From positions 1-52,156 of the IMG/VR virus record IMGVR_UViG_3300005367_000002: a stretch of DNA of 52,156 bases; one strand, given 5' to 3'. How positions within the stretch are numbered: position 1 is the stretch's first letter; each line of letters starts with the position of its first letter. Below, piece after piece: positions 8,948 through 52,156 of this stretch. The position numbers and the translations under genes were made by a program. Origin of the DNA: a virus. The notes beneath the pieces were generated by a model, which ran no database searches, was not told where the DNA came from, and saw only the letters and a program-made list of their open reading frames with translations.

Positions 8948-8949
8948 GA

Positions 8950-13726: not shown

Positions 13727-13728
13727 CG

Positions 13729-14852: not shown

Positions 14853-15229
14853 CGCGCACCTCCGAATCGAGCCACCACCGTCACCTCGTCGGGGTCGACC
14901 TGTCTCGGCCGAACTTCGCCGTACGAACTCGCCACGCATGCAGCGATGCACGCCGACAGGCTCTCCGATGGCGAGGCAACCAGCGGCGCAAGGCGCGGCA
15001 TGGCCGGGCGCTTCGGACCTGTGTCGTTCGCCGGTCTAGCGCGCTTCCCGGTCCCCTTGCACGCGGGGCACGAGTCGATCCCCTTCACGCCGTTCACCTC
15101 GACGGCAACCGCCCCAGTGCCGTCGCACGTGGAACACGTCTCCTCGGTCTCCATGGTCATCTCCTTCCACCGAATCGCCTTCACACGTCGGGATCCGAAC
15201 CAAACGCTCGTCCGCTGCCAGGTCGTCAC
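14849..15229 (-). CDS. DnaJ-type zinc-finger protein
   Basis: 126 residues, GTG at 15229. CSTCDGTG (about 32-39) and CPACKGTG (about 54-61) are paired CxxCxGxG repeats, the zinc-centre signature of DnaJ. No J domain is present. The C-terminal half has small helices. Such isolated motifs are frequent in phages, with no settled function. Confidence 0.7.
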   Translation of the reverse strand: MTTWQRTSVWFGSRRVKAIRWKEMTMETEETCSTCDGTGAVAVEVNGVKGIDSCPACKGTGKRARPANDTGPKRPAMPRLAPLVASPSESLSACIAACVASSYGEVRPRQVDPDEVTVVARFGGAR

Positions 15230-15471
15230 GCGCGCACCTCGGCGGTGACCTCGGCCTTCGCCTTCCTGTCCAGCTCGCGAATCAGCAGCCGCAGCACCCG
15301 GCCACGCTCAGGCCGCTCCGCGCCGCTCGCCTCGAGCCGCGCACGTACCCATTCGAGCGCGCGGAACTCGGTACATGGCATCGCGAAGTGGCGGGTGTCA
15401 CCAAACTGCATCCACCAGCCACGACCGCCGCCTGGGCTGCGCTCGACGACCACGGATACCGTGCGGGTCAC
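15226..15471 (-). CDS. hypothetical basic protein
   Basis: 81 residues from GTG at 15471 that overlaps the TGA of the first operon gene. Beta-like N-terminus and an Arg-rich helical C-terminus (RVLRLLIRELDRKAKAEV). No family. Confidence 0.6.
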   Translation of the reverse strand: MTRTVSVVVERSPGGGRGWWMQFGDTRHFAMPCTEFRALEWVRARLEASGAERPERGRVLRLLIRELDRKAKAEVTAEVRA

Positions 15472-15668
15472 GCCCCACCCTCTTCCGCGGCTTTGCATGA
15501 CGCACACAGGACGACCTCGTTGAACATCCCGCCGAGGACCTCGCCATCAGCGCCGCAGCTTTCGCAGCTGTCGCCGAGGGCCAGGCGGCAGGGGGCGCAG
15601 CGGTCGCCGGGGCAGCAGGTGGCGGAACCGCAGACCGACTCGACCGCTTCGTGGTTCATCGTTGCCAT
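15468..15668 (-). CDS. first gene of the recombination operon, Cys-rich zinc protein
   Basis: 66 residues with many Cys (CCPGDRCAPC, CESC, CASC) arranged as at least one zinc ribbon. ATG at 15668 directly follows the operator arm TAGACAC and lies 7 nt after a -10 box, so the mRNA should begin at or next to the start codon. There is no Shine-Dalgarno. An in-frame ATG at 15689 would fall inside the promoter and was rejected. Confidence 0.7.
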   Translation of the reverse strand: MATMNHEAVESVCGSATCCPGDRCAPCRLALGDSCESCGADGEVLGGMFNEVVLCASCKAAEEGGA

Positions 15669-15697
15669 GTGTCTATTCATAGCGACCAATTAGACAC
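15669..15697. promoter_or_regulatory. 29-bp palindromic operator, copy 1
   Basis: GTGTCTA (15669-15675), 15-bp centre, TAGACAC (15691-15697). It overlaps the spacer and start region of the operon promoter. A further half site TAGACAC occurs at 15722-15728, within a partial direct repeat (AGCGACC at 15681, AGCGACT at 15711). Confidence 0.75.
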
Positions 15698-15704
15698 ACG
15701 TCAA
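15676..15704 (-). promoter_or_regulatory. leaderless promoter of the recombination operon
   Basis: On the minus strand TTGACG (15704-15699), 17-nt spacer, TATGAA (15681-15676), then 7 nt to ATG 15668. Both boxes are close to sigma70 consensus. Confidence 0.7.
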
Positions 15705-15745
15705 ACGCAAAGCGACTAGGTTAGACACGAAAAAATGCATCGCGT

Positions 15746-16030
15746 CTAGTCCGTGTCCTTGATGCCGTTCTTCCAGGCGTCCCGGGGAATGCCCCACGGA
15801 TCTGCCTCGAAGAACTTCACCGCGTCTGCCGGGATGGCCCGGGCCGATTCGCTGCCTTTCGGCGCGTACCATGAACGGACAGTGGTCCGGGGGACGTTGC
15901 GCTTCAGGGCCTTTGTCACCTCGGCGGCCACATCGGGGATGGACTTCCCGAGAGCCTTTGCCCTGATGGGCAGCGGGTGGCGGCTCGTGAACTTCGGCCC
16001 CGACACTTTCGGTGTGTCCGTGCTTGACAT
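15746..16030 (-). CDS. HTH transcriptional regulator (putative repressor)
   Basis: 94 residues when begun at ATG 16030, which follows operator copy 2 by one base. The centre (AKALGKSIPDVAAEVTKALKRNVPRTTVRSW) has the layout of a phage repressor-type helix-turn-helix and is followed by a short acidic tail. The frame is open upstream to a GTG at 16222 (158 residues); that extension is a GC3-rich, coiled-coil-like stretch that also looks coding. The regulator probably binds the two 29-bp palindromes, controlling itself and the operon at 15668. Family membership is judged from pattern only. Confidence 0.7.
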   Translation of the reverse strand: MSSTDTPKVSGPKFTSRHPLPIRAKALGKSIPDVAAEVTKALKRNVPRTTVRSWYAPKGSESARAIPADAVKFFEADPWGIPRDAWKNGIKDTD

Positions 16031-16222
16031 CGTGTCTATTCTCATGTCATTGATAGACACGGTTGTCAATGGCCCCATCGCCCGAATCGCCTCGATCGTG
16101 TCGGCCGCGCCTCGAAGCTGCTTGGCTCGAGTCGTCAGTGCGGCGGCTTCTCGCTCGAACCTGTCGGCCAGGGCGCGGAGCTGGTTCGGCGTCATCGTCT
16201 CGGGCTGCTTCGGGTCGCTCAC
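16031..16222 (-). CDS. in-frame N-terminal extension of the regulator
   Basis: 64 codons from GTG 16222, continuous with the regulator. Residues 10-50 are helical (TPNQLRALADRFEREAAAL) with strong third-position GC, as expected of real coding. The last 15 codons coincide with operator copy 2 and lose that bias. It may be made as a 158-residue long form from a separate start; TACGTT lies 6 nt before the GTG but no good -35 is seen. Confidence 0.45.
16032..16060. promoter_or_regulatory. 29-bp palindromic operator, copy 2
   Basis: GTGTCTAT (16032-16039) and ATAGACAC (16053-16060). The symmetry extends outward: TTGACA occurs on the plus strand at 16024-16029 and on the minus strand at 16069-16064, so both directions could be served by one repressor site. 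Confidence 0.75.
16041..16069 (-). promoter_or_regulatory. candidate autoregulated promoter of the regulator
   Basis: TTGACA at 16069-16064 is clear. A -10 is weaker (CATGAG at 17 nt, TGAGAA at 19 nt). Aligned with the operon promoter, the operator arm and the ATG fall in the same places with 3 extra bases. Confidence 0.5.
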
Positions 16223-16253
16223 GGGCCAAACGTATCAGAGGGAGAGGTCGAGC

Positions 16254-16427
16254 ATGAACGAGAATTCGATGTGGACGCTCTGCACGCTGCTGGTCGTCTC
16301 GATGTTCGTCGGGCTGGCCGTCGTCGGCAAGGGGTGCTGCGAGGCATCCGAGAAGACCATGCAGACGTGCCTGACGTCGGGTCGTCCGATCGCCGAGTGC
16401 GCGCTCATCGGCAGGGGGCGTCAGTGA
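16254..16427 (+). CDS. small membrane protein, first gene of the rightward operon
   Basis: 57 residues preceded by AGAGGGAGAGG, a strong ribosome site. Hydrophobic residues 7-25 form one membrane helix or signal, followed by a Cys-containing segment (GKGCCEASEKTMQTC) that could be periplasmic. A Gly-Lys after the helix and the adjacent Cys leave a secreted form possible. Role unknown. Confidence 0.65.
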   Translation: MNENSMWTLCTLLVVSMFVGLAVVGKGCCEASEKTMQTCLTSGRPIAECALIGRGRQ

Positions 16428-16534
16428 CCTTCGCCCGCATTCGCCCGCTGGAGCTCGCCGTCATCGTGTGCGGCGCGTGGGGACTGCTGGCCGGGCCGGT
16501 GAGCCTGGTCGTCTGGCTGATGGGAGGGAAGTGA
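16424..16534 (+). CDS. membrane micropeptide
   Basis: 36 residues from GTG 16424 (GTGA overlap with the previous stop). Residues 11-32 are hydrophobic (LAVIVCGAWGLLAGPVSLVVW). Ends on the GTGATG that starts the next gene. Confidence 0.55.
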   Translation: MTFARIRPLELAVIVCGAWGLLAGPVSLVVWLMGGK

Positions 16535-16965
16535 TGGACGCGCAGCGAGCCAAGTATCGAATTGTCACCGCCACTGACCCGGCGCTCTGGTGCGTCCGCC
16601 GCGTCTTCGGCGCCGCCGGTGGACCGGATGAGATTGCCCTGACGGCAGAGGGCATGGAGCGGGCGTTCTCGGTTGGCGCGCAAGTCCGCCGTGGCGCGCC
16701 CGCTCTGGCGCTTGAGGCACTCGCGACCGTCGGCGGGGAGGCCTCGTTGTCGGTCAGGAATGGCGCAAGGCTCAGTCCCACCGACCTTGGCCGCCGATTC
16801 GATCAGGCAGCGTGGGGCGTTCTCCGCTCCCTCGGCTATGTCGAAGGGCTGGACACCGTGCACCTCACCGCCGCAGGTAAACGGGCCGTCGAGGACGGCG
16901 CTGTCGAGCGGCGCCGGCTCCTTGCGCGCTGTCGCCGCGCCGCCGGGACGGAGTTGACGCCATGA
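16534..16965 (+). CDS. hypothetical protein
   Basis: 143 residues, with GGGAGGGAAG as ribosome site. The order of helices and a short strand (LTAEGMERAF, LSPTDLGRRFDQAAWGVLRSLGYVEG, HLTAAGKRAVEDG) suggests a winged-helix fold, so DNA binding is possible. No firm family. Confidence 0.65.
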   Translation: MDAQRAKYRIVTATDPALWCVRRVFGAAGGPDEIALTAEGMERAFSVGAQVRRGAPALALEALATVGGEASLSVRNGARLSPTDLGRRFDQAAWGVLRSLGYVEGLDTVHLTAAGKRAVEDGAVERRRLLARCRRAAGTELTP

Positions 16966-29073: not shown

Positions 29074-30815
29074 CAGCGCAAGTCCTCGTCGGTGATTCCA
29101 AGCTGTTTCATCACGACCTTTGCCCCCGGCAGGTTCGGGTTCGCCTTTAGCTTTCGAATCGTCCTGGCTCGAAGGTCTTCGACTGGGTTCGCCGCGGGGG
29201 CCGCCGGCTGAGCAGGCGTCGGCGTCGGGACGGACTTCAGCCCGGCGACGCCAGGCGACCGCTTCGGCACCTTCGGCTGGAAGTCGTCGATGCTCTGCGC
29301 GCCAGGATCCTCGGGAAGCGGCGCCTGGCTGTTCACGTCCTCGGGCGAGTCCTTGGCGACGGGACCGGTCTTCCCGGCGGCGAGCTCGTCGCGAGTGACC
29401 GGGCCAGATAGCGGCTGCTTCGGGACGAACATCGTCGGGGGGGCCATGGCCGGTGACGCCGGGGCTGGGGCCTCACCGCGGTACTGCTGGAGGAGTTGCT
29501 TCGGGTTCTTGAAGCCGTGGGAGGCGAGGCCGCGGGCAGCGTCTCGGTCGAGCTTGTCGATCGCGGCGTCCAACTTGGCCACGCCCATGCCGGCCTTTGA
29601 TGCGAGCGAGCCGCCGATCTGACCCTCGATGATGCCGACGTCTGGACCGGTCAGAACGCCCAGTGCATCCTTCGCCGGGCCCTTCATCATGACGAGCGCG
29701 TCGTTGTAGAGCTGGTCGCGAACCCTGAACTCGTCTTTCGTCGGGTCGATCGTCGCGCCGTATTTCTCCTCGTGGTCACGCAGGCGCTTCAGAGCGTCGC
29801 GCAAGTCGGCGTAGGCCGGCAGCGCCCCCTTCGTGGTCGTGCCGTTCCCGTGCATGAGCTCGTCGGCAAGCTTCGGCGTGCTCGCCTCGCCGATCTTGTC
29901 GCCGTTGACGTTGAAGATGTCCGTCGGGCTGAGCTGGATTTCCGAGGCTGTCGGCCCCTTCGACTTGTCGGGCTTGTTCTCGTTCTCGGTGATCGTGATG
30001 TCCTTGCCCTGCTTCACGATCTTCTGAGTCATGCCGTCGACGGCGCGGCCCTGAGCGTCCAGCATTTCCTTTTGCGCTTTCGCGATGGTCTCATTCGCGT
30101 CGATGTCTGCCTGGGTCTTCCCCTGCGCTTCGAGGTTCGCCTTGCCGATGAGCACGACGCGCTTGAAGGCCACGGCGCCGCGAGCGTCGACCTCAGCCAG
30201 CAGGAGCTTCCGCGCTTCCTGCGCATCGTTCAGGCCGGCCTCGGCCATCACGGCCTTGTCCTTCATCATCTTGATTTTCTCGCGCTGTCGGTCCAGGTCG
30301 CCGTTGATGATGGCGTCGACGGCAGACGGTCCCTGGTCGCGTCCGGTCATGACGGCGATGCGCGCCCGCATAGCATCGGCAGCGCCGCTGAGCCCCACGG
30401 CAAGCGCCTTCATCACGTTCCCGTACGTATCTCCCTCGTGGAACAGCTTCGGCGTGGGGGCGTTGTCGTAGCGGTCGCGCGCTTCCTTCAGCCGCGTCGA
30501 CCACTGTGTGATTTCGTTCTGTGTCTGCTCGTACGCCTTCGCGTGCTCCTCTTGCTGGCGCGCGTACTCGTCTGCCTGCGCTTTCGCGTCGGCAGCCTTC
30601 GCCTCTGCCACTTCCTTGTCGTGCTCGGACTTGGCAAGCGCGTCGTCGATCTGCTGATTCCGCAGCGTTGACAGGTCTTCGTGCAGCTTCGTTTGCTCTG
30701 GGGCCAGCTTCGACGTGGTGACGTCGTTCTCCGGATGCGTCGTCGTCGCCGTGATTTTCTCCGGCGGCGGCGGAATCAGGAACGGAGCTTGCGGGTATGT
30801 GCTCAGGTCTGCCAT
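29073..30815 (-). CDS. large coiled-coil ejection-type protein
   Basis: 580 residues. Residues 35-125 and 165-260 are long, charged coiled coils (for example NQQIDDALAKSEHDKEVAEA), the rest mixed helix and Pro-rich linkers. Starts by one-base overlap with the next gene. In P22-like phages three internal proteins fill this place; the assignment is by position and composition. Confidence 0.6.
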   Translation of the reverse strand: MADLSTYPQAPFLIPPPPEKITATTTHPENDVTTSKLAPEQTKLHEDLSTLRNQQIDDALAKSEHDKEVAEAKAADAKAQADEYARQQEEHAKAYEQTQNEITQWSTRLKEARDRYDNAPTPKLFHEGDTYGNVMKALAVGLSGAADAMRARIAVMTGRDQGPSAVDAIINGDLDRQREKIKMMKDKAVMAEAGLNDAQEARKLLLAEVDARGAVAFKRVVLIGKANLEAQGKTQADIDANETIAKAQKEMLDAQGRAVDGMTQKIVKQGKDITITENENKPDKSKGPTASEIQLSPTDIFNVNGDKIGEASTPKLADELMHGNGTTTKGALPAYADLRDALKRLRDHEEKYGATIDPTKDEFRVRDQLYNDALVMMKGPAKDALGVLTGPDVGIIEGQIGGSLASKAGMGVAKLDAAIDKLDRDAARGLASHGFKNPKQLLQQYRGEAPAPASPAMAPPTMFVPKQPLSGPVTRDELAAGKTGPVAKDSPEDVNSQAPLPEDPGAQSIDDFQPKVPKRSPGVAGLKSVPTPTPAQPAAPAANPVEDLRARTIRKLKANPNLPGAKVVMKQLGITDEDLR

Positions 30816-33065: not shown

Positions 33066-34378
33066 CAGCCTTCGCCTCCAAGGTCGCGCGCGGTCGAGCG
33101 ACGCCCGCGGCGACCCGGCCGGCCAGGCTGCTGCCCAAACCGGAAGCCACCTTGCGGAGGCCGCTGCCCGCCGCCGGGCTGGGTCGGGTAGGTGAAGTCG
33201 GTCACCGGCTGGCCCGGGATGTTCGGCGTGGCCGTCGGGTTGTGACCCTGATGAGCCGGCGGGCCCGGCGGAGTGCCAGGAGGGGGAGGAACCGGTGGCG
33301 GCGCAGCGGGAACGACAGCGGACCCAGCTGCAACGCCAGGGGTGTACCCGGGCGGATGGTACGGATCCGCGGCTGGAGGCGGGACGGGAGGCACCGGCGC
33401 GCCGCGCATCTCCGGAGGAGGCGTCACTGCCGGCGTGGCGACCGCGGGAGGCGGCGGCACGATCGGCGCCTGATTGACGTACGGCGCCCCCATGCGCCCC
33501 TGCGGGTCCAGCTGGTTCCAGTAGCCAGACTGCCCCATCCAACCGGGGAGGCCGGTACCGCCACCCCATCCATCGGCGAGCGCCTGCGCGCCTGTGTAGC
33601 CGCTCTGAGCGAACCGCGCGGCGACCTCGGCAGGGTTGCTGACCGGCGTTGACATTGGCCCGGAGACGAGCTGGCCCATGGACGCCGTGAAGGCCGCTTG
33701 CAGGGCGTTCCTCTCGGCGGCCTGCCGCTGGACCGCGGCCTGGTTCGCAGGATCTGCTTCGTAGGCCTGCGCCGCCTTCGCCGCCTGGATGGACTGCTCC
33801 AGCGCCAGCCCCCCCGATCCCGGGTACATCCTCCGCCAATATTCGTCCTCGGTCAGCCCGAGCTGGGCCATCTGGAGCGCCCAGGACGGAATCGCTGCCG
33901 GTGACGGCGCCGAGGCGGGCGACGGCGCGGAAGACACGGGCGGAAGGGCCTGCCAGCCAGCGGGAACGGCCGTCGGCGCAGCGGTTGCGGCCGGCGCTAC
34001 CGGAGCGCGGTACCCGGCGCGCCCGCTGACCACCTCCGGGTCGAATCGGCCGTAGCTGTCCATCCAACCCTGAAAGGCTCGAGAGTCGGTGTCGTAGTCG
34101 CCGGTCGCCGCGGGGGGCGCGGGAGCGCGATACGCTGGGGGGGGCGCGGGAACGCCAGGGGTGGCGGGGGCCGACTGCGGGGCCGCGACGGTGGTTGCAG
34201 GCGGCGGCTGGGAAGACATGGTCCTCGGCGTGACCGGAGCAGCCGACGGCGGGGGAGCGGCGGGTGGTCGCGCGTCGTTCGTCGGCGTCGTTGCTGGCCT
34301 CGGAGTCGTGTACCCGGACGTCGTCACCCGCTTCGGCGTGCCGTCGTCGTTGTAGTCGCCGAACGGAGAGAACATCAT
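33065..34378 (-). CDS. Pro/Ala-rich disordered virion protein
   Basis: 437 residues; Pro and Ala dominate (segments PPAAPPPSAAP, PPVPPPPGTPP). Short ordered parts occur near 105-125 and 175-300 (GLTEDEYWRRMYPG). Starts inside the end of the hub gene with ATG-ATG; a GTG at 34381 is possible. It lies between the hub and an ejection-type gene, so a flexible virion component is likely. Confidence 0.6.
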   Translation of the reverse strand: MMFSPFGDYNDDGTPKRVTTSGYTTPRPATTPTNDARPPAAPPPSAAPVTPRTMSSQPPPATTVAAPQSAPATPGVPAPPPAYRAPAPPAATGDYDTDSRAFQGWMDSYGRFDPEVVSGRAGYRAPVAPAATAAPTAVPAGWQALPPVSSAPSPASAPSPAAIPSWALQMAQLGLTEDEYWRRMYPGSGGLALEQSIQAAKAAQAYEADPANQAAVQRQAAERNALQAAFTASMGQLVSGPMSTPVSNPAEVAARFAQSGYTGAQALADGWGGGTGLPGWMGQSGYWNQLDPQGRMGAPYVNQAPIVPPPPAVATPAVTPPPEMRGAPVPPVPPPAADPYHPPGYTPGVAAGSAVVPAAPPPVPPPPGTPPGPPAHQGHNPTATPNIPGQPVTDFTYPTQPGGGQRPPQGGFRFGQQPGRPGRRGRRSTARDLGGEG

Positions 34379-37374
34379 CACGTCCACCTTTCGGTTGCCG
34401 GGCGCTTCTCGGCGCCGCCACGGACGCCAACCACGGCGCCCCACTGCTCGAGCCGCCAAGTGCTGTCCGACGGGGGGAGCTCGATCTGAAGCGAGAAGGC
34501 CGCGCAGTTCTGCCGCCCGTGCCCCGGTCTCGCCTCGGCCTGAATCGGCGTCTCGGTGCTCGGGAATGGATTCGCCGCTTCGAACGCCTGCACCGGGTCG
34601 TCGCTGTTGTTCTGGAAGATGGTCAACTTGGGCGCGACGCCCGTATTCGTCCCGACCTGCGCCCCGGTAACGAACGCGCGGTAGAGGCGCATCTGCGTCC
34701 CGAACTGGCCGGCGCGGACCCACGCACTACGAATCGTCCCGCGATACGTGGTTCCGGCGTCGGTCGTCGACGTCGCGTTCTCGGTGAGCGCGCCATCGCT
34801 CTTGAAGAGCATTTGGTTCCCGCTGACGATCGCCGACAGCGCGTAGCCGCTCAGGCCGCCGGTCCAGCGGTACCAGATCTGATGCTTGCGGTCGTAGACG
34901 AGCTGGCCGCCAGAGTAGAGGAAGCGCACCTCGTTCTTGGCGCGAGAGAACACGATGTCAGTCACGCCGATCGGCGTGCGAACCGTCGGTTGACAGAAGA
35001 AGTCGTCCACCGGGGAACCAATCCAGGCGACGCGCGCGCTGCGGTCGATCGAGAAAATGCCGCGCTCCGAGACGAAGAACACCTCTTCCCCGGTCGAGAG
35101 CGTCGGGGGGCCGATAATGGCGCCGACGTCCATGCTCACGCGTGCCGTGGAGTGCAGCGAGCCCGAGCCGTTGTCCTCGGGGCCGTCGCCAGCCACCAGA
35201 TAGATGGCGTTCTTCTTGAAGACGACCAGCTTGTCGTCTAGCTGCGCAATCCCAGTGATGTCGCCGAACTCGTCGTCGAAGTCGATCACGAACTCGCCGA
35301 CGAACTCCGGTTGATGGCCGGGGCGGATGTGCTTCGAGAACCACAGTTCGGTGCGGAAGTCGGCGTTGACCATCCACAGCCGATCGCCGTACGTCGCGAG
35401 GTACGCCGGGCGCGGGGTGATAGCCGTTTCGAGCTCGGCGTAGGTGTAGAGGAAGTCGTTCCCGGCAAGCGCGATGTCCGTCGTCGAGTCGACGGTTGCG
35501 ACTGCGCCGGTACCGCTGCTCAAGTAAGTGATCGACACGAGCTGGAACACGCTGCCGTTGCCGGCGGTTCGGAACAATTTCGCGGCAACCGATCGCGGCT
35601 GTATCCCGAGGCTGAGCCCCTGGCTCTCGAGGCACGGCATTGTCCGCGGGTCGTAGGTCGCCGTCACGGTGTTATTGGCCCCCGTGAGCGTGATCGACGC
35701 CGGCTCGCTGAGCGGCGACCTCCACACGCGTCCGTGCTGGTCGGCGATCTCCAGCATCTCGACGTACTGATACGTTGCAAGCAGCGTCAGGCCCGCGCCG
35801 CCTACCGTAGACTGCACAAGCGTAGGAGACCGCGGGAAGAACGGGACGCCGTGAATCGGGCAAGGCCCCGGCTCAGCGGCGAACAATGCACCAGACGGAA
35901 ACCACAGCGCCCCGGCGCATTCCAGCGGGCGACCCACTGACAGCGCTCCGACGTTCGCGGCGGCCGACGCCGGATACTCGATGTGCCAGACGTCGGGGAC
36001 ATAGACAGCTGCGCTTGCTCCCGCAATCTCCGTGGCCGTAGCGCGGCGATAGAGCGCCGTCCAGAAGGACCGCGATGAATCTCGAACCACGTGGGGGAGT
36101 GCTTCGCCGCCAAACGGGTCTACCCACGCGTCGAGAGGCAGGATCACGGATTGCGGCTCCTCCCGTGTGGTCACGGTGTTTCCGCCAGTGAACGAGAACG
36201 TGAATTCCAGATACGTCCGCTGCGTCTCCGCTGCCGCGGTCACGTTGATGCCCATGATCACGCGCATCGGATCCGTCCCCGGCTCCCGCCAGGCGTTGCC
36301 CTTCAGCGCAAGATCGGTGCGCGCAGCCCCGCCGACGAATGCAGCCGCGCCGATGGTCGCCGACTTCTTGCAGGCCTTCGGACCGCCGGCCGTCTGGTAG
36401 ACGATCTGCCACTCGGTCCCGTTCGTGTAGGCCACTCCTGCCATTGACGTCGAAGCGATTGCCTCGGCCTGCTCGTCAGTTGTCACTGCGCCAGCCGACG
36501 TTACTCGCAGGACGCGCGTCGACGGCGACGTGTTCGAAACGGCGATGTATCTGACTCCGGAGCCGTCAGGTTCAGAGAGCAGAGACAACCAGTTATCGCA
36601 GGTGACCGCGATGACCAGATTCGCCGTCGCAGTCGACCCAGTCGAAGGGTTGTACTCGATGAACCGGATCTGATTCGCGGCGGTGCGGGCGACGATCGTG
36701 ATCGTCGAGCCCGTGTAATACATGATGTCGACCCACGACACCGTAGCGTGCCCACCTGCCCCGGAGATGGTGTCGCTGCGCTGCTGGTTTCCGGCCGAGT
36801 CGTAGACCACTGCCCGCGTCGTGCCGTCGGTGCACCCCATGACAACGACGAACAGGCTCCCGAGCGCGGCGACGCGCGCATAGTTCGTGGTGCTCAGGAG
36901 CGTGACCGCAGGCGCGATCTGCTCCATCGTCGACTTGCGAAAGAACGTCAGAACGTGCGGGAAGACGAAAGCGTTCTTCACAGCCACCGCCGTGGGCGTC
37001 ACCGCGACGTCCAGCGACGATGCCGCCCCCGTGGAGCGCTGGTAGTTGACCGAGTACCGCGTCCAGTTCGCCGGCCGATCGCGTAGGGACGCGCCGTACG
37101 ACGTCGTCGACGTTCCCGAGTCGTAGAACCGCATCACGTCGCCGTCCGTGTCGGCCAGGTAAGCGAGGCCGCCGTCGGCCTTGGCGCCGACCATCACTGG
37201 ACCCGGGCTCATCGTGACCGCGTCAAATCCCTGGCGCGCACGCCACTCGTCGGCGCGCTCCTGCTTCACGTCGTCCAGGCGCAGGTGCGAGCCCGGCTGC
37301 ACGGACAGCGGGTTGGAATCGCCAGCCAAGCCGCCGGTCAACGGCCAAGAAATTGGCTGGGGACGGAGTGCCAT
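34378..37374 (-). CDS. tail hub / stabilisation protein
   Basis: 998 residues, beta-strand throughout with repeated Thr/Val strands, fitting a multi-bladed propeller. DDKLVVFKKNAIYLVAGDG and GEEVFFVSERGIFSIDRSA recall the nozzle/stabilisation proteins that plug short tails (P22 gp10-like). ATG 37374 has a GGAGG ribosome site. It is the largest gene here and lies next to the tail fibre and adaptor. Confidence 0.75.
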   Translation of the reverse strand: MALRPQPISWPLTGGLAGDSNPLSVQPGSHLRLDDVKQERADEWRARQGFDAVTMSPGPVMVGAKADGGLAYLADTDGDVMRFYDSGTSTTSYGASLRDRPANWTRYSVNYQRSTGAASSLDVAVTPTAVAVKNAFVFPHVLTFFRKSTMEQIAPAVTLLSTTNYARVAALGSLFVVVMGCTDGTTRAVVYDSAGNQQRSDTISGAGGHATVSWVDIMYYTGSTITIVARTAANQIRFIEYNPSTGSTATANLVIAVTCDNWLSLLSEPDGSGVRYIAVSNTSPSTRVLRVTSAGAVTTDEQAEAIASTSMAGVAYTNGTEWQIVYQTAGGPKACKKSATIGAAAFVGGAARTDLALKGNAWREPGTDPMRVIMGINVTAAAETQRTYLEFTFSFTGGNTVTTREEPQSVILPLDAWVDPFGGEALPHVVRDSSRSFWTALYRRATATEIAGASAAVYVPDVWHIEYPASAAANVGALSVGRPLECAGALWFPSGALFAAEPGPCPIHGVPFFPRSPTLVQSTVGGAGLTLLATYQYVEMLEIADQHGRVWRSPLSEPASITLTGANNTVTATYDPRTMPCLESQGLSLGIQPRSVAAKLFRTAGNGSVFQLVSITYLSSGTGAVATVDSTTDIALAGNDFLYTYAELETAITPRPAYLATYGDRLWMVNADFRTELWFSKHIRPGHQPEFVGEFVIDFDDEFGDITGIAQLDDKLVVFKKNAIYLVAGDGPEDNGSGSLHSTARVSMDVGAIIGPPTLSTGEEVFFVSERGIFSIDRSARVAWIGSPVDDFFCQPTVRTPIGVTDIVFSRAKNEVRFLYSGGQLVYDRKHQIWYRWTGGLSGYALSAIVSGNQMLFKSDGALTENATSTTDAGTTYRGTIRSAWVRAGQFGTQMRLYRAFVTGAQVGTNTGVAPKLTIFQNNSDDPVQAFEAANPFPSTETPIQAEARPGHGRQNCAAFSLQIELPPSDSTWRLEQWGAVVGVRGGAEKRPATERWT

Positions 37375-37409
37375 TAGGAGGCCCTCCGGAGCGATGCGGC
37401 GTGCTCCGC

Positions 37410-37439
37410 TTGACCGGCGCCCGCTACGCGTTCAAGAAT
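37410..37439 (+). promoter_or_regulatory. leaderless promoter of the isolated plus-strand gene
   Basis: TTGACC (37410-37415), 18-nt spacer, AAGAAT (37434-37439), 7 nt to GTG 37447. The 9-mer CGCTACGCG (37422-37430) lies in the spacer. Confidence 0.5.
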
Positions 37440-37446
37440 CTGTCCG

Positions 37447-37743
37447 GTGGAAGAGAAGCCGTCTCCGTTCCCGAAGGCCAAGCAGGCCGCGTTCGCCGCC
37501 GCGGCGGTGGCGATTTCGCTGGCGCTCGTCGGAATCCTTGGCGCCGTCATCGTGAGCGCTCCTGCCTGGTACGAGCGGTTCCAGGCATTCCGCCATGAGC
37601 AACGGCAGGCCGAAGCCATGCACGGACGCGTCCGCGTGCTCGACTGCATCGACGCGGCAAAGGAGCGCCTCCAGAAGCCAATCCCGCGCGACACGCTGGC
37701 CGGGATCGAAGCCGCCTGCGCCGTGGCCGACGCGAACCGGTAG
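37447..37743 (+). CDS. isolated membrane protein (moron candidate)
   Basis: 98 residues on the strand opposite to all neighbouring virion genes. One membrane helix at about 16-38 (FAAAAVAISLALVGILGAVIV) and a helical, basic cytoplasmic or periplasmic tail with two Cys. No ribosome site, but a promoter ends 7 nt before the GTG. It ends 1 base from the stop of the tail-fibre gene. Independent transcription suggests expression in the prophage, as with superinfection-exclusion morons. Confidence 0.6.
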   Translation: MEEKPSPFPKAKQAAFAAAAVAISLALVGILGAVIVSAPAWYERFQAFRHEQRQAEAMHGRVRVLDCIDAAKERLQKPIPRDTLAGIEAACAVADANR

Positions 37744-37744
37744 G

Positions 37745-38854
37745 TCACGAGAACTCCCACAGGAGGATGATCCCGTTCCCGCCGAGGCCGCCGGTCTTCG
37801 CGGTGATTCCAGCGCCGGCCATTGCCCCACCGCCGCCAGATGCTCGAGCGATTGCCGAAGTCCCGTCGAGATCGGCGCCGGCAGCGTTCGATACGCCGAC
37901 GCCAGCGCCGCCCCACAACGACGATCCTCCGCTTCCGGAGTAGAGGACGCCGGAGGGGCTCGTGACCGCCGGAGATCCCGGCGCGCTGGATCCGTTCTGC
38001 GTGCCGTTGGAGCTGATGGCCGCCGCCGCTCCAGGGTTCCCGCTCGCACCGAGCCGGCCGCCGCCGGGTCCGCCCTTCGCAGTAACGGTCGTGACGCCGT
38101 CAGAGAACGTGGTATCAGCCCCGGCACCACCCGGACTGCCGGTGCCACCCGACGAGCCGCCAGCGCCAATCGAATGCGTCCAGTTCGCCGGGATCGTCGC
38201 CGTGGCGAAGTAGGCGAACCCGCCCGCCGCACCGCCGTGCCCGCAGTCACCGATCGACGCCGCACTGCCGCCGCCCTGGCCGCCCCCGGCCCAGATCTTG
38301 GCAATCGCAAGCGTGCACCCCGCGGCGGAGGCCGTCGACGCGCCACTGGTGATGATCCTCGGAGAGCGAAGCAGCCGGCCCGCAGATGCCGGGGCCGCCC
38401 AACTCCCGTCAGCACGGAGGAAATTCGCTGTCCCGCCGCCGCTCGCCGGGACGATGCCGTCCGTTGTCGCCGTGAACAGTGCCAGCGCGAGGTTGACCCC
38501 AGACCACACCATTCGCTGCCATCGACCAGGCTTCGAGCCGTTCGGGTTGATGACGTACCGGCTGTCGTCGCGTGCCGTGGCCGTCGAATTCCAGGCAAAG
38601 GCTCCCTCGAGCCCGTCGAGCACGGCCGACCCGCCGGACAGCAGCGCAACGCGCGGACCGGCCTCGCCCGAGTCGTCGCCGGGCGTCTTCCGAAGTGCGG
38701 CGATGGTGGCCGCCGTGATGGCCTTGAGACCGGGCAGCTTCGACGGGCTGCGGTTGCCGTCGAGTTCGACAAACGCCGAGTAGTAATCGACGAGCAGGCT
38801 CAGCAGATCCTCAGGATCCTTGATCTGTGCCAGGTTGGGCTTTTTCAGGTTCAT
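37745..38854 (-). CDS. tail fibre with glycine-rich tip
   Basis: 369 residues. Helical start, then GGGTANFLRADGSWA, a widely shared fibre motif, and from about 200 to the end many GGxGG runs with a closing GIILLWEFS. Glycine-rich tips of this style fold as polyglycine sandwiches in some phage adhesins and vary with host. ATG 38854 overlaps the adaptor stop; longer readings are shadows. Confidence 0.75.
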   Translation of the reverse strand: MNLKKPNLAQIKDPEDLLSLLVDYYSAFVELDGNRSPSKLPGLKAITAATIAALRKTPGDDSGEAGPRVALLSGGSAVLDGLEGAFAWNSTATARDDSRYVINPNGSKPGRWQRMVWSGVNLALALFTATTDGIVPASGGGTANFLRADGSWAAPASAGRLLRSPRIITSGASTASAAGCTLAIAKIWAGGGQGGGSAASIGDCGHGGAAGGFAYFATATIPANWTHSIGAGGSSGGTGSPGGAGADTTFSDGVTTVTAKGGPGGGRLGASGNPGAAAAISSNGTQNGSSAPGSPAVTSPSGVLYSGSGGSSLWGGAGVGVSNAAGADLDGTSAIARASGGGGAMAGAGITAKTGGLGGNGIILLWEFS

Positions 38855-43121: not shown

Positions 43122-43370
43122 TCAGATCCTTTCGTGGTGTTCTCGGATGCGCCCAGGCGGGACGTACTCGTCAAGCTCGTCGTGCAGGACAGGCCACAGC
43201 ACATCTCCGAAAGAACAGCGCTGAAGTCGATGGCCGTCGCCACCGCAGAGGCCGCAGGTCCCCGGATACTCGCCGGCCGCCTCTTGCTCTGCGGCTTCAG
43301 GCTCCGTCAGATAGTTCTTCCCGCGCCATCCCAGGCCCGCGAACGGCCGGTGGGTCAGCGGGCCGCTCAT
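43122..43370 (-). CDS. zinc-ribbon-like protein
   Basis: 82 residues. CGLCGGDG (39-46) resembles half of a DnaJ-type site, with another Cys at 52. Coupled to the portal gene by ATGA. Function unknown. Confidence 0.6.
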   Translation of the reverse strand: MSGPLTHRPFAGLGWRGKNYLTEPEAAEQEAAGEYPGTCGLCGGDGHRLQRCSFGDVLWPVLHDELDEYVPPGRIREHHERI

Positions 43371-45403
43371 TGCACCATCCCCGGCACGGGCGGCCCACCT
43401 GGTCCACCTGGAACCGGCGGCAGGGCTGGTCCGGGTGGCGCCTGAGGCGGCTCACCGGTCGGCGTCGGACCCGCGGACGTCGGAGGCGCGATGCCAGGAA
43501 GCACCGGCGGCTGAAGCTGCGGACCGCCTCCACCGGGGCCACCGGGCGCGGGCGGTCCGGCAGGTGGCGCGGCAGGCTGCGGCTTCGTTGCGTTCAGCAG
43601 CCGCCGCAACATGTTCATGGCCTCCTCGCTGTACGCGTCGTCGAGGAGCGCCAGGAAGTACCGCGCTCGCGCGTAGGTGAACAGCGCCTCTTTGTTCATG
43701 TACTCGTCGGGCGTCTCATAGTGCTCGTCCTCGAGGATGTCGTCGACGATCTTCTCCTGAAGCATCTGCTCGGACAGGATGAGGTCGGTGATGGGCGAGA
43801 TGTCCGGCACGTTCAGCGCCGACATGGCCTGTTCGCGCGTCAGCCACCCCTCTTTGATCAGGTCGGCCGCCTTCTGGAACTGGCCCGAGAGCGACTGCCC
43901 GAACAGCGACGACGGAAGCACGCGGATCTCGTACTCGCCGGTCAGGTCCTCAAAGACCATTTCCTTCCACACGCCGCGGGAGATGGCACGCCACTTCGGC
44001 TTGGCGTCGGGGTTCTTCTTCGCGTGGTCGCGGGTCAGCCGCCACCACCACTTCGCGGTCTCGACCCGGTCCGTCTCCCAGTTCTGAGACGGGAGCGCGA
44101 GCCGGTCGGCCTGAAGCTCGGTGTCCTCGCGGATGGCCACGGCCGCCGTCACTCCCGCGCGCCCCTGCCCGCGCATCGTATTCGGGGACAGGCCGATGGT
44201 GTCGGACATCTGCCCTTCGAGCTCGTGCGTGTACTGGTACGCCTCTGGGTGGAGCGCTGGCGGCGTCTCGACCGTCGCAGCGGTGTTCACGTACTCATCC
44301 ACCGCGACGTAGGCGTTGTTCAGGCCCGTCGGCGCATTCTCGCCCTTCTTCGTGTGGATGATCTTAGTCGCGCTCTGGTGGTGTGCCTCGCGCAAGGTGA
44401 TTTGCTGCTCGTTCAACTCGACCTGAGCCGCCCTGGTCAGCGACACGACACTGTGCCCGCTCACGCCGACATGCTTCTCGTCGAAGACGCCCGTGATGAA
44501 CGGGATACCGTCGTAGTGCCAATCCTCGTCCGTGTGCAGCTTGTTGCCGACCACGATGACGTGCCTGCCGTTCGGGCCGCGCTGGTAGGCGTCGATCACG
44601 CGAACCTTCTGTAAGGCGTTGCTCGCGCCGATGGCCCCGGCCATCAGGCTCCCGTTGCTCGACGACTGGCCGGCAAGCTCCTCGGGATCCACGCCGAGCA
44701 TCGCGGCAGCGGCTACGGTGGGAATGCGACGGACGTGGTAGCGGCACTCCGGGTCGCCGAGCTTGCCATCTTCCTTGTCCCACAGCTGCTCCCACGGCGG
44801 AAAGCGGGCCAGTTTCGTGTCGCCGTCCTCGACGTAGACCTTCATCCAGCCGAGGTCACACGTGAGCTGGTCGCGCATCTTCAGCGACGCCTCTTTCTGG
44901 TAGCCGACGTGGTCAGCCCAAGCGTCGGACAGCTCGGTCATGTACCTGCTGGCGCGCTTGGCTTTGCCGTTGCCGCTGGACGGGACGAACTGCGCGCGCG
45001 GTCGGAACGAGCAGATTCGGTTCCGAACGGTGCCGACGAGCTGATACGCCTTGTTGAAGATTTGGCCGTTCCCCTCGCGGGCGTCGATGCGTGCGAACAC
45101 CTCGGACGCGGCGTCTAGATCGGTCACGCGGTCGCCTGTGTACAGTTCGAGGTCGTAGGCCATCCACTCGCGGCGATTCTTCTCGTCCTGCGACTGCTCG
45201 ATTTCGTCGACGGTTCGGTTGAGCTTTTGCACGAGATCAACCGCGTCTAGGTCGCCGGCTTCGTTCTCCTCGGCGTTCGGCGCCTCGCACCAACGCGGGC
45301 CGCTCCCGGTGCGCTGCATGCGCTCTTCGGGCTGGTCGGTGTCGGTGACTTCGGCTTCGGAGTTCTCGGTGGGGTCGGTAGGGTCGGTGGTCTCGTCGCT
45401 CAT
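43367..45403 (-). CDS. portal protein
   Basis: 678 residues, in the range of short-tailed phage portals. Acidic N-terminus, then EWMAYDLELYTGDRVTD, a long central domain (FPPWEQLWDKEDGK, RVIDAYQRGP, GIPFITGVFDEKHVG) and the stem-type helix before a Pro/Gly-rich tail of about 90 residues. It forms the dodecameric DNA gate, and lies directly downstream of TerL. The very long Pro-rich tail is unusual. Confidence 0.85.
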   Translation of the reverse strand: MSDETTDPTDPTENSEAEVTDTDQPEERMQRTGSGPRWCEAPNAEENEAGDLDAVDLVQKLNRTVDEIEQSQDEKNRREWMAYDLELYTGDRVTDLDAASEVFARIDAREGNGQIFNKAYQLVGTVRNRICSFRPRAQFVPSSGNGKAKRASRYMTELSDAWADHVGYQKEASLKMRDQLTCDLGWMKVYVEDGDTKLARFPPWEQLWDKEDGKLGDPECRYHVRRIPTVAAAAMLGVDPEELAGQSSSNGSLMAGAIGASNALQKVRVIDAYQRGPNGRHVIVVGNKLHTDEDWHYDGIPFITGVFDEKHVGVSGHSVVSLTRAAQVELNEQQITLREAHHQSATKIIHTKKGENAPTGLNNAYVAVDEYVNTAATVETPPALHPEAYQYTHELEGQMSDTIGLSPNTMRGQGRAGVTAAVAIREDTELQADRLALPSQNWETDRVETAKWWWRLTRDHAKKNPDAKPKWRAISRGVWKEMVFEDLTGEYEIRVLPSSLFGQSLSGQFQKAADLIKEGWLTREQAMSALNVPDISPITDLILSEQMLQEKIVDDILEDEHYETPDEYMNKEALFTYARARYFLALLDDAYSEEAMNMLRRLLNATKPQPAAPPAGPPAPGGPGGGGPQLQPPVLPGIAPPTSAGPTPTGEPPQAPPGPALPPVPGGPGGPPVPGMVQ

Positions 45404-47584: not shown

Positions 47585-47785
47585 CTATCCGGCGACCTCC
47601 TCAGGCGGGGGCGGTTCGATCACTGTCTGCTGGCGAGAGCCGTCGCAGGCTGGGCACACGACCGGGTGCTTGATCCATGTCACGCCGTCAATCCAGAAGT
47701 TGACGCCTGAGCCACTACAGGACAGGCACGGCACTCGACTCCCGACCGTCACACGTGGCTGAAAGGCACGTTCTTCGTCGGTCAC
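47585..47785 (-). CDS. DnaJ-like zinc-finger protein
   Basis: 66 residues. CLSCSGSG (20-27) and CPACDGS (44-50) match paired CxxCxGxG. Lies between TerL and the GNAT gene. Same class as 14849-15229. Confidence 0.65.
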   Translation of the reverse strand: MTDEERAFQPRVTVGSRVPCLSCSGSGVNFWIDGVTWIKHPVVCPACDGSRQQTVIEPPPPEEVAG

Positions 47786-48450
47786 TCGTCCACCTCCACG
47801 CTGCCGGCGCCCGACAGCAAGTCGTCATCCACGGCCGTCCGCCCGAGCGATAACCGCTCGACCTGCGCCCGGTCCCGCTTCCACTTCGACAGGTCGACTT
47901 CCTCGATCCGGACCGTCGGGATGCCGTGGCACTTCACCCAGCGCCCCCAGCAAGCCGTCTCGGCCAGCACCTTGAGCGGCAGGTCCACGCCGGCCGCCTC
48001 GAGCAGCCGCAGGCCGATGCCGGCGCCGCGGAACTGCTTCTTGACGTACAGCATGCCCAGCACGTCGAACTGGTCCCACAGCGCGAACCCGAGAATCACG
48101 CGCGTCCCCTCGTGAGAAGCCGTGGCCAGCAACGTGCGTCCGTCGTTGATCATCTCGGCCACGCGCGGTCCGAAGATGTGGACCCACTCTGTCCAGCGCA
48201 CCGGGCGCGTGTAGTCGCGGTGCGGCCAGCGGGTCTTGGCCGTGGCCTCGAACACGAAGGCGGTCTCGCTGCGGAGCTCGGGCGGCTGCACGTCGACAGT
48301 GAGGCCCGAAGCCAGGAGGCGCCGCGCCCCCTCGGTGCGCATGTGTTCGACCTGGCCGGCCAGGATGGCGTCGCGCTCGGCGGTGGCGCCTGGGCGGCGA
48401 ACCTTCGCGAAGGAGGCGAGCGTTGGGACGAGGTCGGGCGTCGCGGTCAC
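47782..48450 (-). CDS. GNAT-family acetyltransferase
   Basis: 222 residues. LGMLYVKKQFRGAGIGLRLLEAA (near residues 130-152) is motif A with the acetyl-CoA loop QFRGAGIG. N- and C-terminal extensions of about 70 residues are unassigned. Phage GNATs placed before terminase may modify host or virion proteins; the target is unknown. Confidence 0.8.
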   Translation of the reverse strand: MTATPDLVPTLASFAKVRRPGATAERDAILAGQVEHMRTEGARRLLASGLTVDVQPPELRSETAFVFEATAKTRWPHRDYTRPVRWTEWVHIFGPRVAEMINDGRTLLATASHEGTRVILGFALWDQFDVLGMLYVKKQFRGAGIGLRLLEAAGVDLPLKVLAETACWGRWVKCHGIPTVRIEEVDLSKWKRDRAQVERLSLGRTAVDDDLLSGAGSVEVDE

Positions 48451-49695: not shown

Positions 49696-49923
49696 CTAGA
49701 CCACCTTCCCGAGGTTCGCCCGCGGGCCGGCCTGTAACTCACGGAACGCACGGACCGCCGTGTCAGCGGCGTGCAAGGCTCGCTCGGCCCGAAGGGTGAG
49801 CGCCCAGCACGCCCCAAACGCCGCGTTCCAAATGGCCTGCTCTTGCTGGGTCAGTTCGACCCCAACCGCGGTCGTGACACTCGGCGTGGCGTAGGCGGTC
49901 ACGAACCCGTCGTCGTCTGCCAT
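49696..49923 (-). CDS. first gene of the late operon
   Basis: 75 residues, helical centre (QQEQAIWNAAFGACWALTLRAERAL). No ribosome site, but a promoter ends 6 nt before ATG 49923. It heads the chain leading to TerL and the head genes. No family; a role as small terminase is not supported by its size. Confidence 0.65.
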   Translation of the reverse strand: MADDDGFVTAYATPSVTTAVGVELTQQEQAIWNAAFGACWALTLRAERALHAADTAVRAFRELQAGPRANLGKVV

Positions 49924-49929
49924 TCAGTC

Positions 49930-49958
49930 ACGCTACGCGCAGATTTGGCACATGTCAA
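49930..49958 (-). promoter_or_regulatory. leaderless late promoter
   Basis: Minus strand TTGACA (49958-49953), 17 nt, TAGCGT (49935-49930), 6 nt, ATG 49923. CGCTACGCG at 49931-49939 overlaps the -10. Confidence 0.65.
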
Positions 49959-49980
49959 GGTGACTCGATTGACTTTCTGG

Positions 49981-50030
49981 CGCTATACGTGGGTCACGAC
50001 GACCCGCGGTGACAGATTGGCGCTATACGT
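49981..50030. promoter_or_regulatory. two CGCTATACGT sites in a divergent promoter region
   Basis: CGCTATACGT at 49981-49990 and 50021-50030, exactly 40 bp apart, within a longer shared TGGCGCTATACGT. They lie between the leftward and rightward promoters and match sites before the capsid gene. Confidence 0.6.
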
Positions 50031-50033
50031 TCC

Positions 50034-50062
50034 TAGACGGGGAGCGCGTAGCGGAGTACAAC
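50034..50062 (+). promoter_or_regulatory. leaderless promoter of the plus-strand gene at 50069
   Basis: TAGACG (50034-50039), 17 nt, TACAAC (50057-50062), 6 nt, ATG 50069. CGCGTAGCG lies in the spacer (50045-50053). Confidence 0.5.
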
Positions 50063-50068
50063 TGACGA

Positions 50069-50473
50069 ATGAGAACGCCTGAGGAGCTGCTCGACTGGGT
50101 GCGCCGACAGTGGCTCGCTCATCCAGACGATTACGACCCAACGGACGAGCAGATGCTGGAGTTCATCGCGGCGGTCCAGCGCGACGCCATCGAAGGCAGC
50201 CCGCTTCCGGACGTGGCTGATCGCCAGGAGACCGCGCGCATAGACGAACAGGCCCACGAGGACGCCGAACACATGGCCGCCAGGGTCGCCGCACAAGACG
50301 AGAAGCACGCGATCGTGAGCGATGCATGGGAGCGAAACGCCGCCCGCATCGCCGAGTTCTTCGTCACCGGATCCCTCGAGTCCGGCGCAGCCATCTGCAA
50401 GCGCCTGCACGGCGAGGACTGCGGTTGCTGGGCTCGCGACTACGCGGCCTGGCAGGCGCGGAACGACGAGTAG
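50069..50473 (+). CDS. isolated acidic helical protein
   Basis: 134 residues, helical and acidic, with three Cys close to the end (CKRLHGEDCGCW). It is alone on the plus strand between two leftward operons and has its own promoter, divergent from the late promoter. Candidate late regulator or accessory gene; no DNA-binding motif is clear. Confidence 0.65.
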   Translation: MRTPEELLDWVRRQWLAHPDDYDPTDEQMLEFIAAVQRDAIEGSPLPDVADRQETARIDEQAHEDAEHMAARVAAQDEKHAIVSDAWERNAARIAEFFVTGSLESGAAICKRLHGEDCGCWARDYAAWQARNDE

Positions 50474-50486
50474 CGGCTACCGTCGT
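50463..50486. terminator. possible two-way hairpin between convergent genes
   Basis: ACGACG with CGTCGT and GTA with TAC form an imperfect stem across the two stops. No T-run follows, so an intrinsic terminator is not certain. Confidence 0.3.
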
Positions 50487-50680
50487 CGGATTGGCACGCC
50501 CGGGTACGCCGCGCGAATCTCCGCGTCGGTCAGCACCTTGACGCCAACTGGGATTGCCCGCGGCTTCGGCTTGGAGATCGGCTTGGGTTTTCCGTTGCGC
50601 CACGGGTGATACTGCGACGGGAGGTTGCCGCCGAGGTAGGCCGGAGTTCCGTGCCACTTCCCCTTGCGCAGGTAGCTCAT
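50477..50680 (-). CDS. small basic protein
   Basis: 67 residues, Lys/Pro-rich middle (KPKPISKPKPR), then VLTDAEIRAAYPGV. Coupled by ATGA to the winged-helix gene. No family. Confidence 0.6.
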   Translation of the reverse strand: MSYLRKGKWHGTPAYLGGNLPSQYHPWRNGKPKPISKPKPRAIPVGVKVLTDAEIRAAYPGVPIRRR

Positions 50681-51192
50681 GGCTCGTCGGCGCGCTCGCG
50701 GATCGCCATTCGGCCCAACCGGATCTCCTCCTCCGTGAATCCAGAAGGCTGACGAGCTACCGCCTCCCGAAGGCGCTTTCTCTCGCGGTACCGGCGCTGA
50801 CGCTCGGCAGACCCATGGTCCTTCTCGAGGTAGCGCATGAAATTCAGGATGATGTAGCCGCCGTTGATGCGCACCATTCGCCGGCCCTCAAAAGCCGACG
50901 CAAGGCTCTCTCGCTCCGGCGCACCCATCCTCTCGAGCGCGGCGATACCTGTCTCTCGGTCGACGCCGGCATTCCTGATGATCCCGACGCCTGCCGCCTC
51001 GACGAACCCATACCATCCCGGTGGAATCTCCCAGCCCGTCGGCTCCATCGTCCTGGCGTCCAGCTGCGGCGTGTCCTCCCGCAGCTCGTGCACCCTGGCC
51101 ATGAGCAACGCGGTCACGAACACGTCACGGACGTCGCGGTCCACCCACACTGACGAGTTCAGAATTCCGCGGTCCAGCTTGATGAATCCCAT
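50677..51192 (-). CDS. winged-helix-like protein, possible second replisome organiser
   Basis: 171 residues. GFIKLDRGILNSSVW and the later GWEIPPGWYGFVEAAGV recall the N-domains of phage replisome organisers; residues 85-125 continue the wing (RMVRINGGYIILNF). A basic helix (RQRRYRERKRLRE) follows. Its promoter ends 7 nt before ATG 51192 and carries two small palindromes, so it is separately controlled. Could be regulator or replication factor. Confidence 0.6.
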   Translation of the reverse strand: MGFIKLDRGILNSSVWVDRDVRDVFVTALLMARVHELREDTPQLDARTMEPTGWEIPPGWYGFVEAAGVGIIRNAGVDRETGIAALERMGAPERESLASAFEGRRMVRINGGYIILNFMRYLEKDHGSAERQRRYRERKRLREAVARQPSGFTEEEIRLGRMAIRERADEP

Positions 51193-51328
51193 GGCCTGTT
51201 ACGTGACACGCACGCGACAAATTGTCAACCTGAGACAAAGTGTCGTAGCCGATTACGTAATAGTGACCTACGAAGATACGAGATACGGAGAATATAGGGC
51301 GGCTATCTCGCATGCACTGCGGCATGGG
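51193..51328. promoter_or_regulatory. operator region upstream of 51192
   Basis: GACAAATTGTC (51216-51226) and GACAAAGTGTC (51234-51244) are 11-bp palindromes 18 bp apart; GTGACAC (51204-51210) is a further small one. The remainder up to the next gene's stop at 51329 is AT-richer than its surroundings and holds no gene. Confidence 0.55.
51200..51228 (-). promoter_or_regulatory. leaderless promoter of 50677-51192
   Basis: Minus strand TTGACA (51228-51223), 17 nt, CACGTA (51205-51200; ACGTAA with 18 nt also fits), 7 nt, ATG 51192. An AGG close to the ATG is at most a weak ribosome site. Confidence 0.5.
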
Positions 51329-52004: not shown

Positions 52005-52132
52005 GGCCGCCCCGCAATCTCCCAGCACACCTCGCGGCACTTCCCGAGATGGCCTGGCCGCAGGTTGCAGGTACCGACGACCGTGCCGTCAGGCAGTTTG
52101 AGCGGCGCGCCGCACGTCGGCTCGGGTGTCAT
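52001..52132 (-). CDS. small Cys-containing protein
   Basis: 43 residues. C7, C22 (GTCNLRPGHLGKC, with C32) and C36 with a His between suggest a small zinc site. The ATG at 52132 lies in the terminal repeat; its other copy is at 96-94. Confidence 0.6.
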   Translation of the reverse strand: MTPEPTCGAPLKLPDGTVVGTCNLRPGHLGKCREVCWEIAGRP

Positions 52133-52156
52133 TCGCTGTCCTCGTCATCGTACGGC
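52037..52156. repeat. terminal direct repeat, right copy
   Basis: Identical to bases 1-120; see the left copy. Counting it once gives a circle of 52,036 bp. Confidence 0.95.

Follow-up and report, generated by a model that had tools for sequence, protein, structure and literature searches.

Genes with promoters abutting the start codon and predicted leaderless translation in an uncultured phage group

How are phage genes expressed when a promoter-like sequence ends directly before the start codon and leaves no room for a Shine-Dalgarno (SD) site? This question was raised by the virus record IMGVR_UViG_3300005367_000002 of IMG/VR, the whole of which (52,156 bases, G+C 65.6%) was analysed and is called the window below. 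A sequence-only reading of this DNA had suggested that genes leading transcription units are made from leaderless mRNA. In the present study, we compared the window with related viral sequences. We consider it likely that, in a subset of genes, a sigma-70-type promoter is fused to the start codon and translation proceeds without an SD site. This subset would include the putative repressor, an early-switch gene, the early gene starting at 51192 and small cargo genes that lie apart from the main operons or run against them.

The window carries an exact direct terminal repeat of 120 bases (1-120 and 52037-52156), which indicates that the genome is probably complete and circularly assembled. The integrase, annealing protein, exonuclease, terminase, portal and virion protein genes listed in Table 1 fit a temperate tailed phage. 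A gene resembling GNAT acetyltransferases (47782-48450, weak Pfam matches) adjoins the terminase gene. No megablast match was found in 50,697 phage records, so no close phage is deposited there; the sequences closely related to it are fragments from uncultured viruses, and one relative, G001 (52,461 bases, with an end repeat of 127 bases), is apparently complete. A search of cellular genomes returned no terminase homologue. Distant homologues of the 51192 protein were found on three cellular contigs, belonging to an Acidobacterium MAG, a Vicinamibacteria MAG and an unplaced proteobacterial MAG, and an acidobacterial host would be plausible from these three distant matches only. In three MAGs of putative hosts, the promoter-start pattern gave 28 matches at a gap of 6-7 nt and 16 at a gap of 18-19 nt, which is a modest excess. 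From the inferred hosts and the metagenome numbers, we take the window and its relatives to come from soils.

Table 1. Coordinates of the features discussed, numbered along the window. Promoters are written as -35 box, spacer (nt), -10 box, gap (nt) and start codon.
Feature	Coordinates	Strand	Description
Candidate promoter	8945-8983	-	before small gene adjoining integrase; TTGCAC-17-TACAAC-7-ATG; rank 15
Integrase	9009-10049		
Sak4-like annealing protein	11180-12256		
PD-(D/E)XK exonuclease	12695-13828		
Cys-rich (zinc-ribbon-like) gene	15468-15668	-	66 aa; first gene after the repressor-like ORF
P3, promoter of Cys-rich gene	15666-15704	-	TTGACG-17-TATGAA-7-ATG; overlapped by operator half-sites
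Putative operator half-sites at P3	15669-15728		GTGTCTA/TAGACAC at 15669, 15691 and 15722
Repressor-like ORF	15746-16222	-	158 aa; conserved helical N-terminal half, variable HTH-like C-terminal half
P2, weaker internal promoter	16028-16069	-	before in-frame ATG inside the long ORF; TTGACA-17-CATGAG-10-ATG
Putative operator half-sites at P2	16032-16060		at 16032 and 16054; same spacing as the 15669/15691 pair
P1, promoter of putative long form	16220-16258	-	TTCATG-18-TACGTT-6-GTG
Internal virion protein	34378-37374		
Leaderless-type promoter of 37447-37743	37410-37449	+	TTGACC-18-AAGAAT-7-GTG
Gene starting at 37447	37447-37743	+	98 aa, apparent membrane segment; alone inside leftward structural operon; independent gene call
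Portal	43367-45403		
Terminase	46177-47583		
Gene starting at 49923	49696-49923	-	75 aa; heads leftward unit; independent gene call; conserved in relatives
Leaderless-type promoter of 49696-49923	49921-49958	-	TTGACA (49953-49958), 17 nt, TAGCGT (49930-49935), 6 nt, ATG
Conserved non-coding element	49979-50029		divergent intergenic region; direct repeat GGCGCTATACG (49979, 50019), inverted repeat GGGTC/GACCC between
Weaker leaderless-type promoter of 50069-50473	50034-50071	+	TAGACG-17-TACAAC-6-ATG
Gene starting at 50069	50069-50473	+	134 aa; divergent from 49923; exchangeable slot; independent gene call
Gene starting at 51192	50677-51192	-	171 aa; unit leader; independent gene call
Promoter of 50677-51192	51190-51228	-	TTGACA (51223-51228), 17 nt, CACGTA, 7 nt, ATG

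The geometry of the five proposed sites was recovered as originally read. Counted from the end of the -35 box, the distance to the start codon was 29, 30, 29, 30 and 31 nt at 49923, 15668, 50069, 51192 and 37447, respectively, and the -10 hexamer stopped 6-8 nt short of the start codon at these sites and at 16222. The proposed sequence pattern, TTGACN with TANNNT, held strictly at 49923, but the other four sites deviated in one or both hexamers, and several -10 boxes were poor (CACGTA at 51192, AAGAAT at 37447 and, at the internal promoter P2 described below, CATGAG). Promoters were scored in the leaderless geometry using a generic sigma-70 matrix, which was not fitted to the host. Among the 2,860 ATG/GTG triplets on both strands, 49923 ranked 1, 37447 ranked 2, 15668 ranked 3, 51192 ranked 5 and 50069 ranked 12. 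The thresholds used in this study were picked after the first results were seen. In the window, three sites scored at least 11.3 (0.63 expected from dinucleotide shuffles, maximum 3 in 30 shuffles) and six at least 8.9 (3.7 expected). The proposed scan against shuffled sequence was therefore borne out only as a modest excess, and the window by itself is marginal, suggestive rather than decisive.

The absence of an SD site was confirmed at every candidate start. At the five proposed starts, the duplex with the anti-SD sequence was worth -0.8 to -6.1 kcal/mol, values matched by 25-94% of random 20-mers. The starts at 784, 8063 and 41510, which had been named as strong SD sites, reached -10.2 to -11.6 kcal/mol. 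Genes were called with a home-made caller that used codon usage only and was blind to promoters. In these calls, 37447, 49923, 50069 and 51192 were unit leaders, as had been claimed for each site, but 15668 was absent; the start of the 15668 gene is backed by homologues in the relative L124 and in a near-identical contig.

The frequency of the arrangement was compared between unit-leading and operon-internal genes in seven related genomes, using called starts and a score of at least 10 as the definition of a strong promoter. Such a promoter was found 6-7 nt before 13 of the 146 unit-leading starts and before none of the 298 internal starts, so the pattern was far from equally frequent in the two classes; for unit leaders, the average other gap pair gave 0.38. 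The 13 cases amount to about nine distinct promoters because the seven genomes are kin. SD-like matches of at least 5 bases showed the opposite distribution, with 124/298 internal genes against 30/146 leading genes. As a general rule for unit leaders, leaderless expression proved too broad, since strong SD sites precede the genes at 784, 8063, 12220 and 41510 and many unit leaders show neither a promoter at the start nor an SD signal. The proposal is well supported by comparison for a particular gene set, made up mainly of the repressor and early-switch block, the gene at 51192 and small isolated genes that lie between operons or are opposed to them. From these comparisons we infer, with good support, leaderless or near-leaderless initiation for regulatory, early and cargo genes.

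The 51192 protein has 89 relatives in viral contigs, and its family appears to be widespread in soil phages. The start codon of the family is fixed by a near-invariant M-x-F-V-K-L-D motif. In 59 distinct upstream regions, each pair of which differed at more than 15 of 60 positions, TTGAC was located 34-39 nt upstream of the start in 23 and at other positions in 2, and TANNNT peaked at 6-7 nt from the start. When the best promoter anywhere in 57 nt was taken, 18/59 upstream regions scored at least 10 (0.77 expected from shuffles), and in 16 of these 18 promoters the gap to the start was 5-8 nt, against 0.13 expected and at most 2 in any of 300 shuffles. In the window copy, the -35 box is good and the -10 box is poor. 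The spacing was kept in L010/L011 (TTGACA-17-CAGTTT-7) and L003/L004 (TTGACT-17-CATCGT-6), where most other bases had changed. A clear promoter at the start was lacking in a good part of the 59 homologues, and in a few an SD site took its place (AAGGAGG in L076 and GGAGGTG in L070), which suggests that leaderless and leadered initiation can replace each other within this family.

Small palindromes overlap the window promoter (GACAAATTGTC at 51216), and CGTNACG boxes lie across the promoter in many 51192 homologues, where they are probably operators. Upstream of the homologues in many phages, for example L065 (L005) and L101 (L007), tandem GTCACGCC / CGTNACG boxes extend across the promoter to the start codon; these are probably operators or iterons of a DNA-binding protein. 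The 51192 protein yielded a confident structure model (pLDDT 82), and the fold search gave no significant structural match; we presume that it may act in DNA replication. Several homologues, such as those of L004 and L005, have repeated Ala-Glu runs (AEAEAEAE) in the C-terminal region, which the window protein lacks. No usable function could be assigned to the predicted leaderless genes from Pfam, PHROGs or NCBIfam, and the 75-aa gene at 49923 matched no family.

The gene at 37447 is opposed to the flanking operon, is exchanged between relatives and has its own predicted promoter, which are traits of morons. Homologues of its protein, 71-100% identical, occur in G003, G006, G007 and G008, and none was found in G001 or G002. 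The slot is occupied by one gene family in the window, L018, L020, L022 and L026, and by unrelated plus-strand genes in L021 and L025. The non-homologous gene of L021 has the same geometry (TTGACC-18-AAGAAT-7-GTG) and that of L025 nearly the same (TTGACA-18-CATTCT-9-ATG); in L022 and L026 the distance from TTGACA to the start is the same, with no good -10 box visible. This is the pattern of a slot for exchangeable cargo (morons), in which each gene would bring its own start-fused promoter. A reading of 37447 as a spurious ORF antisense to 37374-37916 was dropped, because the gene was called independently, has homologues and shares its slot with other plus-strand genes.

At the divergent pair, the boxes and gap of the 49923 promoter are identical in G001, G002 and G009, which are too similar to count as independent. 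The gene at 50069 has near-identical homologues in five contigs and is replaced by another gene in L019, L027 and L025; in L019 and L027 the ATG of the replacement is likewise preceded by TAGGAT, at a gap of 7 nt. This start is the weakest case, with TAGACG as its -35 box and little divergence among relatives, and chance alone could still account for it. The two copies of GGCGCTATACG in the window belong to the intergenic element, which is strongly conserved among relatives and is kept in L019, L025 and L027 despite different flanking genes.

The block at 15668-16222 has a common anatomy in five phages, a 158-aa-type ORF followed by a Cys-rich gene on one strand. The reading frame of the ORF is kept through the linker in all five relatives. 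The counterpart in L126 matched the HTH family phrog_925 (E 9e-5), and the HMM search of the window protein gave no HTH domain. Its structure model was helical, including the C-terminal half, with modest confidence (pLDDT 68), and the fold search returned no significant PDB match. The ORF probably encodes a repressor, and it is possible that long and short forms, of 158 and 94 aa, are made from it. The 66-aa Cys-rich protein has a weak PF09723 match (E 0.044) and a homologue in L124, and Cys-rich genes occupy the corresponding place in G001, L126 and L128.

Three promoter-like sites were recognised in this block, although a scan of 15200-16600 demanding near-consensus boxes found none. At P3, the -10 box ended 6-7 nt before the start in 5/5 phages (TATGAA-7, TAGATT-6, TAGATT-6, TAGAGT-7 and TATAAC-6), while the operators differed; some P3 genes have a second in-frame ATG 6-9 nt downstream, and the promoter distance is constant for the first ATG only. 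At P1, the gap between a TACNNT box and GTG is 6 nt in all five, and the -35 box is TTGACG or TTGATG in L124 and G001. An in-frame internal start with a promoter-like P2 is present in the five relatives, with weak -10 boxes and gaps of 7-10 nt. The gap is 7 in L126 (TTGACA-17-AACACT-7-GTG), L128 (TTGACT-17-CACGGT-7-ATG) and, by eye, L124 (CACGAT-7), and it is 10 in the window and G001.

P2 and P3 share 8-mers within a phage and not between phages, clearly so in three of the five. The half-sites are phage-specific: GTGTCTA/TAGACAC in the window, CGTTGCA in L124, GGTTGC in G001 and GTAGAGT in L126; the sharing is weaker for L126 and L128. Five of the six GTGTCTA sites in the window genome fall in the switch block, and the half-site closest to the P3 gene directly adjoins its start codon in the window, L124, G001 and L128. 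We tentatively propose, with somewhat less than even confidence, a modular immunity switch in which a constant N-terminal half is joined to an exchangeable HTH half. Two forms would be made from two leaderless promoters, one nested within the ORF, and the ORF would control itself and the next gene through start-abutting operators that co-vary with the HTH half, so that the geometry stays fixed while specificity is swapped. The block may represent a new arrangement, an operator-swapped tandem switch.

Taken across these loci, the comparison showed that the predicted geometry persists where sequences have diverged widely and where genes or operators have been replaced. This bears directly on chance, that is, on the best of many promoter-like matches having been picked from a 52-kb sequence. 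The window alone, with its six sites against 3.7 expected at the lower threshold, would allow such an explanation, but the results for 51192, 37447, the switch block and the seven genomes are unobtainable by selection within the window. Chance is thus very improbable overall, and as the sole explanation it was rejected for 51192, 37447 and the switch block. A second alternative holds that repressor operators (CGTNACG at the 51192 homologues, phage-specific half-sites at the switch) determine the spacing, the start being near through genome compactness and translation beginning further downstream or through a weak SD-like GTGA in the operator. Operators do overlap the promoters, and the GTGA of CGTGAC boxes inflates the apparent short SD matches. 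However, the start of the 51192 family is pinned by its N-terminal motif, the P3 operators differ between phages at an unchanged distance of 6-7 nt, and the 37447 slot shows no such operator, which makes this explanation improbable.

The closest competitor differs from leaderless initiation by only a few nucleotides. The same promoters might start transcription slightly upstream and give leaders of 2-6 nt, too short for an SD site, with other features aiding initiation. Gaps of 8-11 nt in L110, L053, L052 and L060 and the gap of 10 at P2 in the window and G001 agree with such leaders, but the mode was sharply 6-7 nt in every set tested, and we regard them as rather unlikely for the set. With start-fused sigma-70-type promoters as the preferred reading, a -10 box ending 6-7 nt before ATG or GTG leads one to expect a transcript that begins with the start codon or no more than about 3 nt from it. 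RNA polymerase would begin at or beside this codon and ribosomes would load on the bare start codon. The product of the HTH ORF, presumably in a lysogenic role, would repress P2 and P3 by covering the region from promoter to start codon; since the half-sites span the promoter and reach to the start codon, binding of the repressor would obstruct RNA polymerase directly. Together, promoter, operator and start would occupy about 40 bp and could move with their gene as one compact unit, which suggests a convenient portable arrangement for cargo and immunity genes.

Leaderless phage genes are already known as single cases, mostly in cultured model phages; here predicted ones become visible, by comparison alone, as a set in an uncultured group whose arrangement outlasts the exchange of genes and operators. 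Leaderless genes have been predicted from sequence in 3/3 Acidobacteria genomes, at 9.7-19.4% and on average 13.3% of genes (Zheng et al. 2011, PMC3160421). The TA-led genes of that survey resemble the present ones in carrying TANNNT some 12 nt upstream of the start codon and lacking an SD site, but the survey was predictive, concerned cellular genes and did not treat phages of this group. In cluster O mycobacteriophages (Corndog and relatives), the divergent promoters PL1 and PR2 are predicted to be leaderless, with +1 at the first codon base, and PL2, which is organised alike, serves a gene running against the structural operon (PMC4351075). The layout is almost identical, with PL1/PR2 corresponding to 49923/50069 and PL2 to 37447. 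The difference is that cluster O phages have mycobacterial hosts and SigA promoters, whereas the window has no megablast match to any phage record and its set includes a repressor block with exchangeable operators.

For the switches of PY54, lambda and CP-933P type, RACE has shown that the leaderless cI, cro and paaR2 mRNAs start at the AUG (PMC4488713, PMC8630535). Genes of the repressor region are predicted to be start-fused in the window as well. In those switches the repressor and early gene are divergent, whereas the HTH-like ORF and the next gene of the window are in tandem on the minus strand; the divergent repressor and lytic regulator around shared operators of the lambda CI/Cro type were not found in the block. 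The phiC31 repressor, as far as the citation of Smith and Owen (1991) in PMC4557955 describes it, is made in N-terminally different forms from one ORF. The window ORF, whose forms are predicted, would resemble it in being read from more than one start, and it differs in size. For metagenomic phages, the start-fused geometry may offer a practical means of locating the genuine start codons and recognising immunity specificities.

Further candidates were seen beside the integrase and in other genomes. The window copy of the promoter at 8945-8983 contains an inverted repeat (AATACAGT/ACAGTATT), and G001 has, near 51331, a non-homologous small gene beside its integrase with TTGCGC-16-TAATGT-7-ATG. 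Another gene, at 37723-38010 in G011 and 30364-30735 in G012, is preceded by TTGCAC-17-TAGATT-6-ATG, and the last bases before its ATG (GGTTGC or GGTTTC) resemble the G001 operator.
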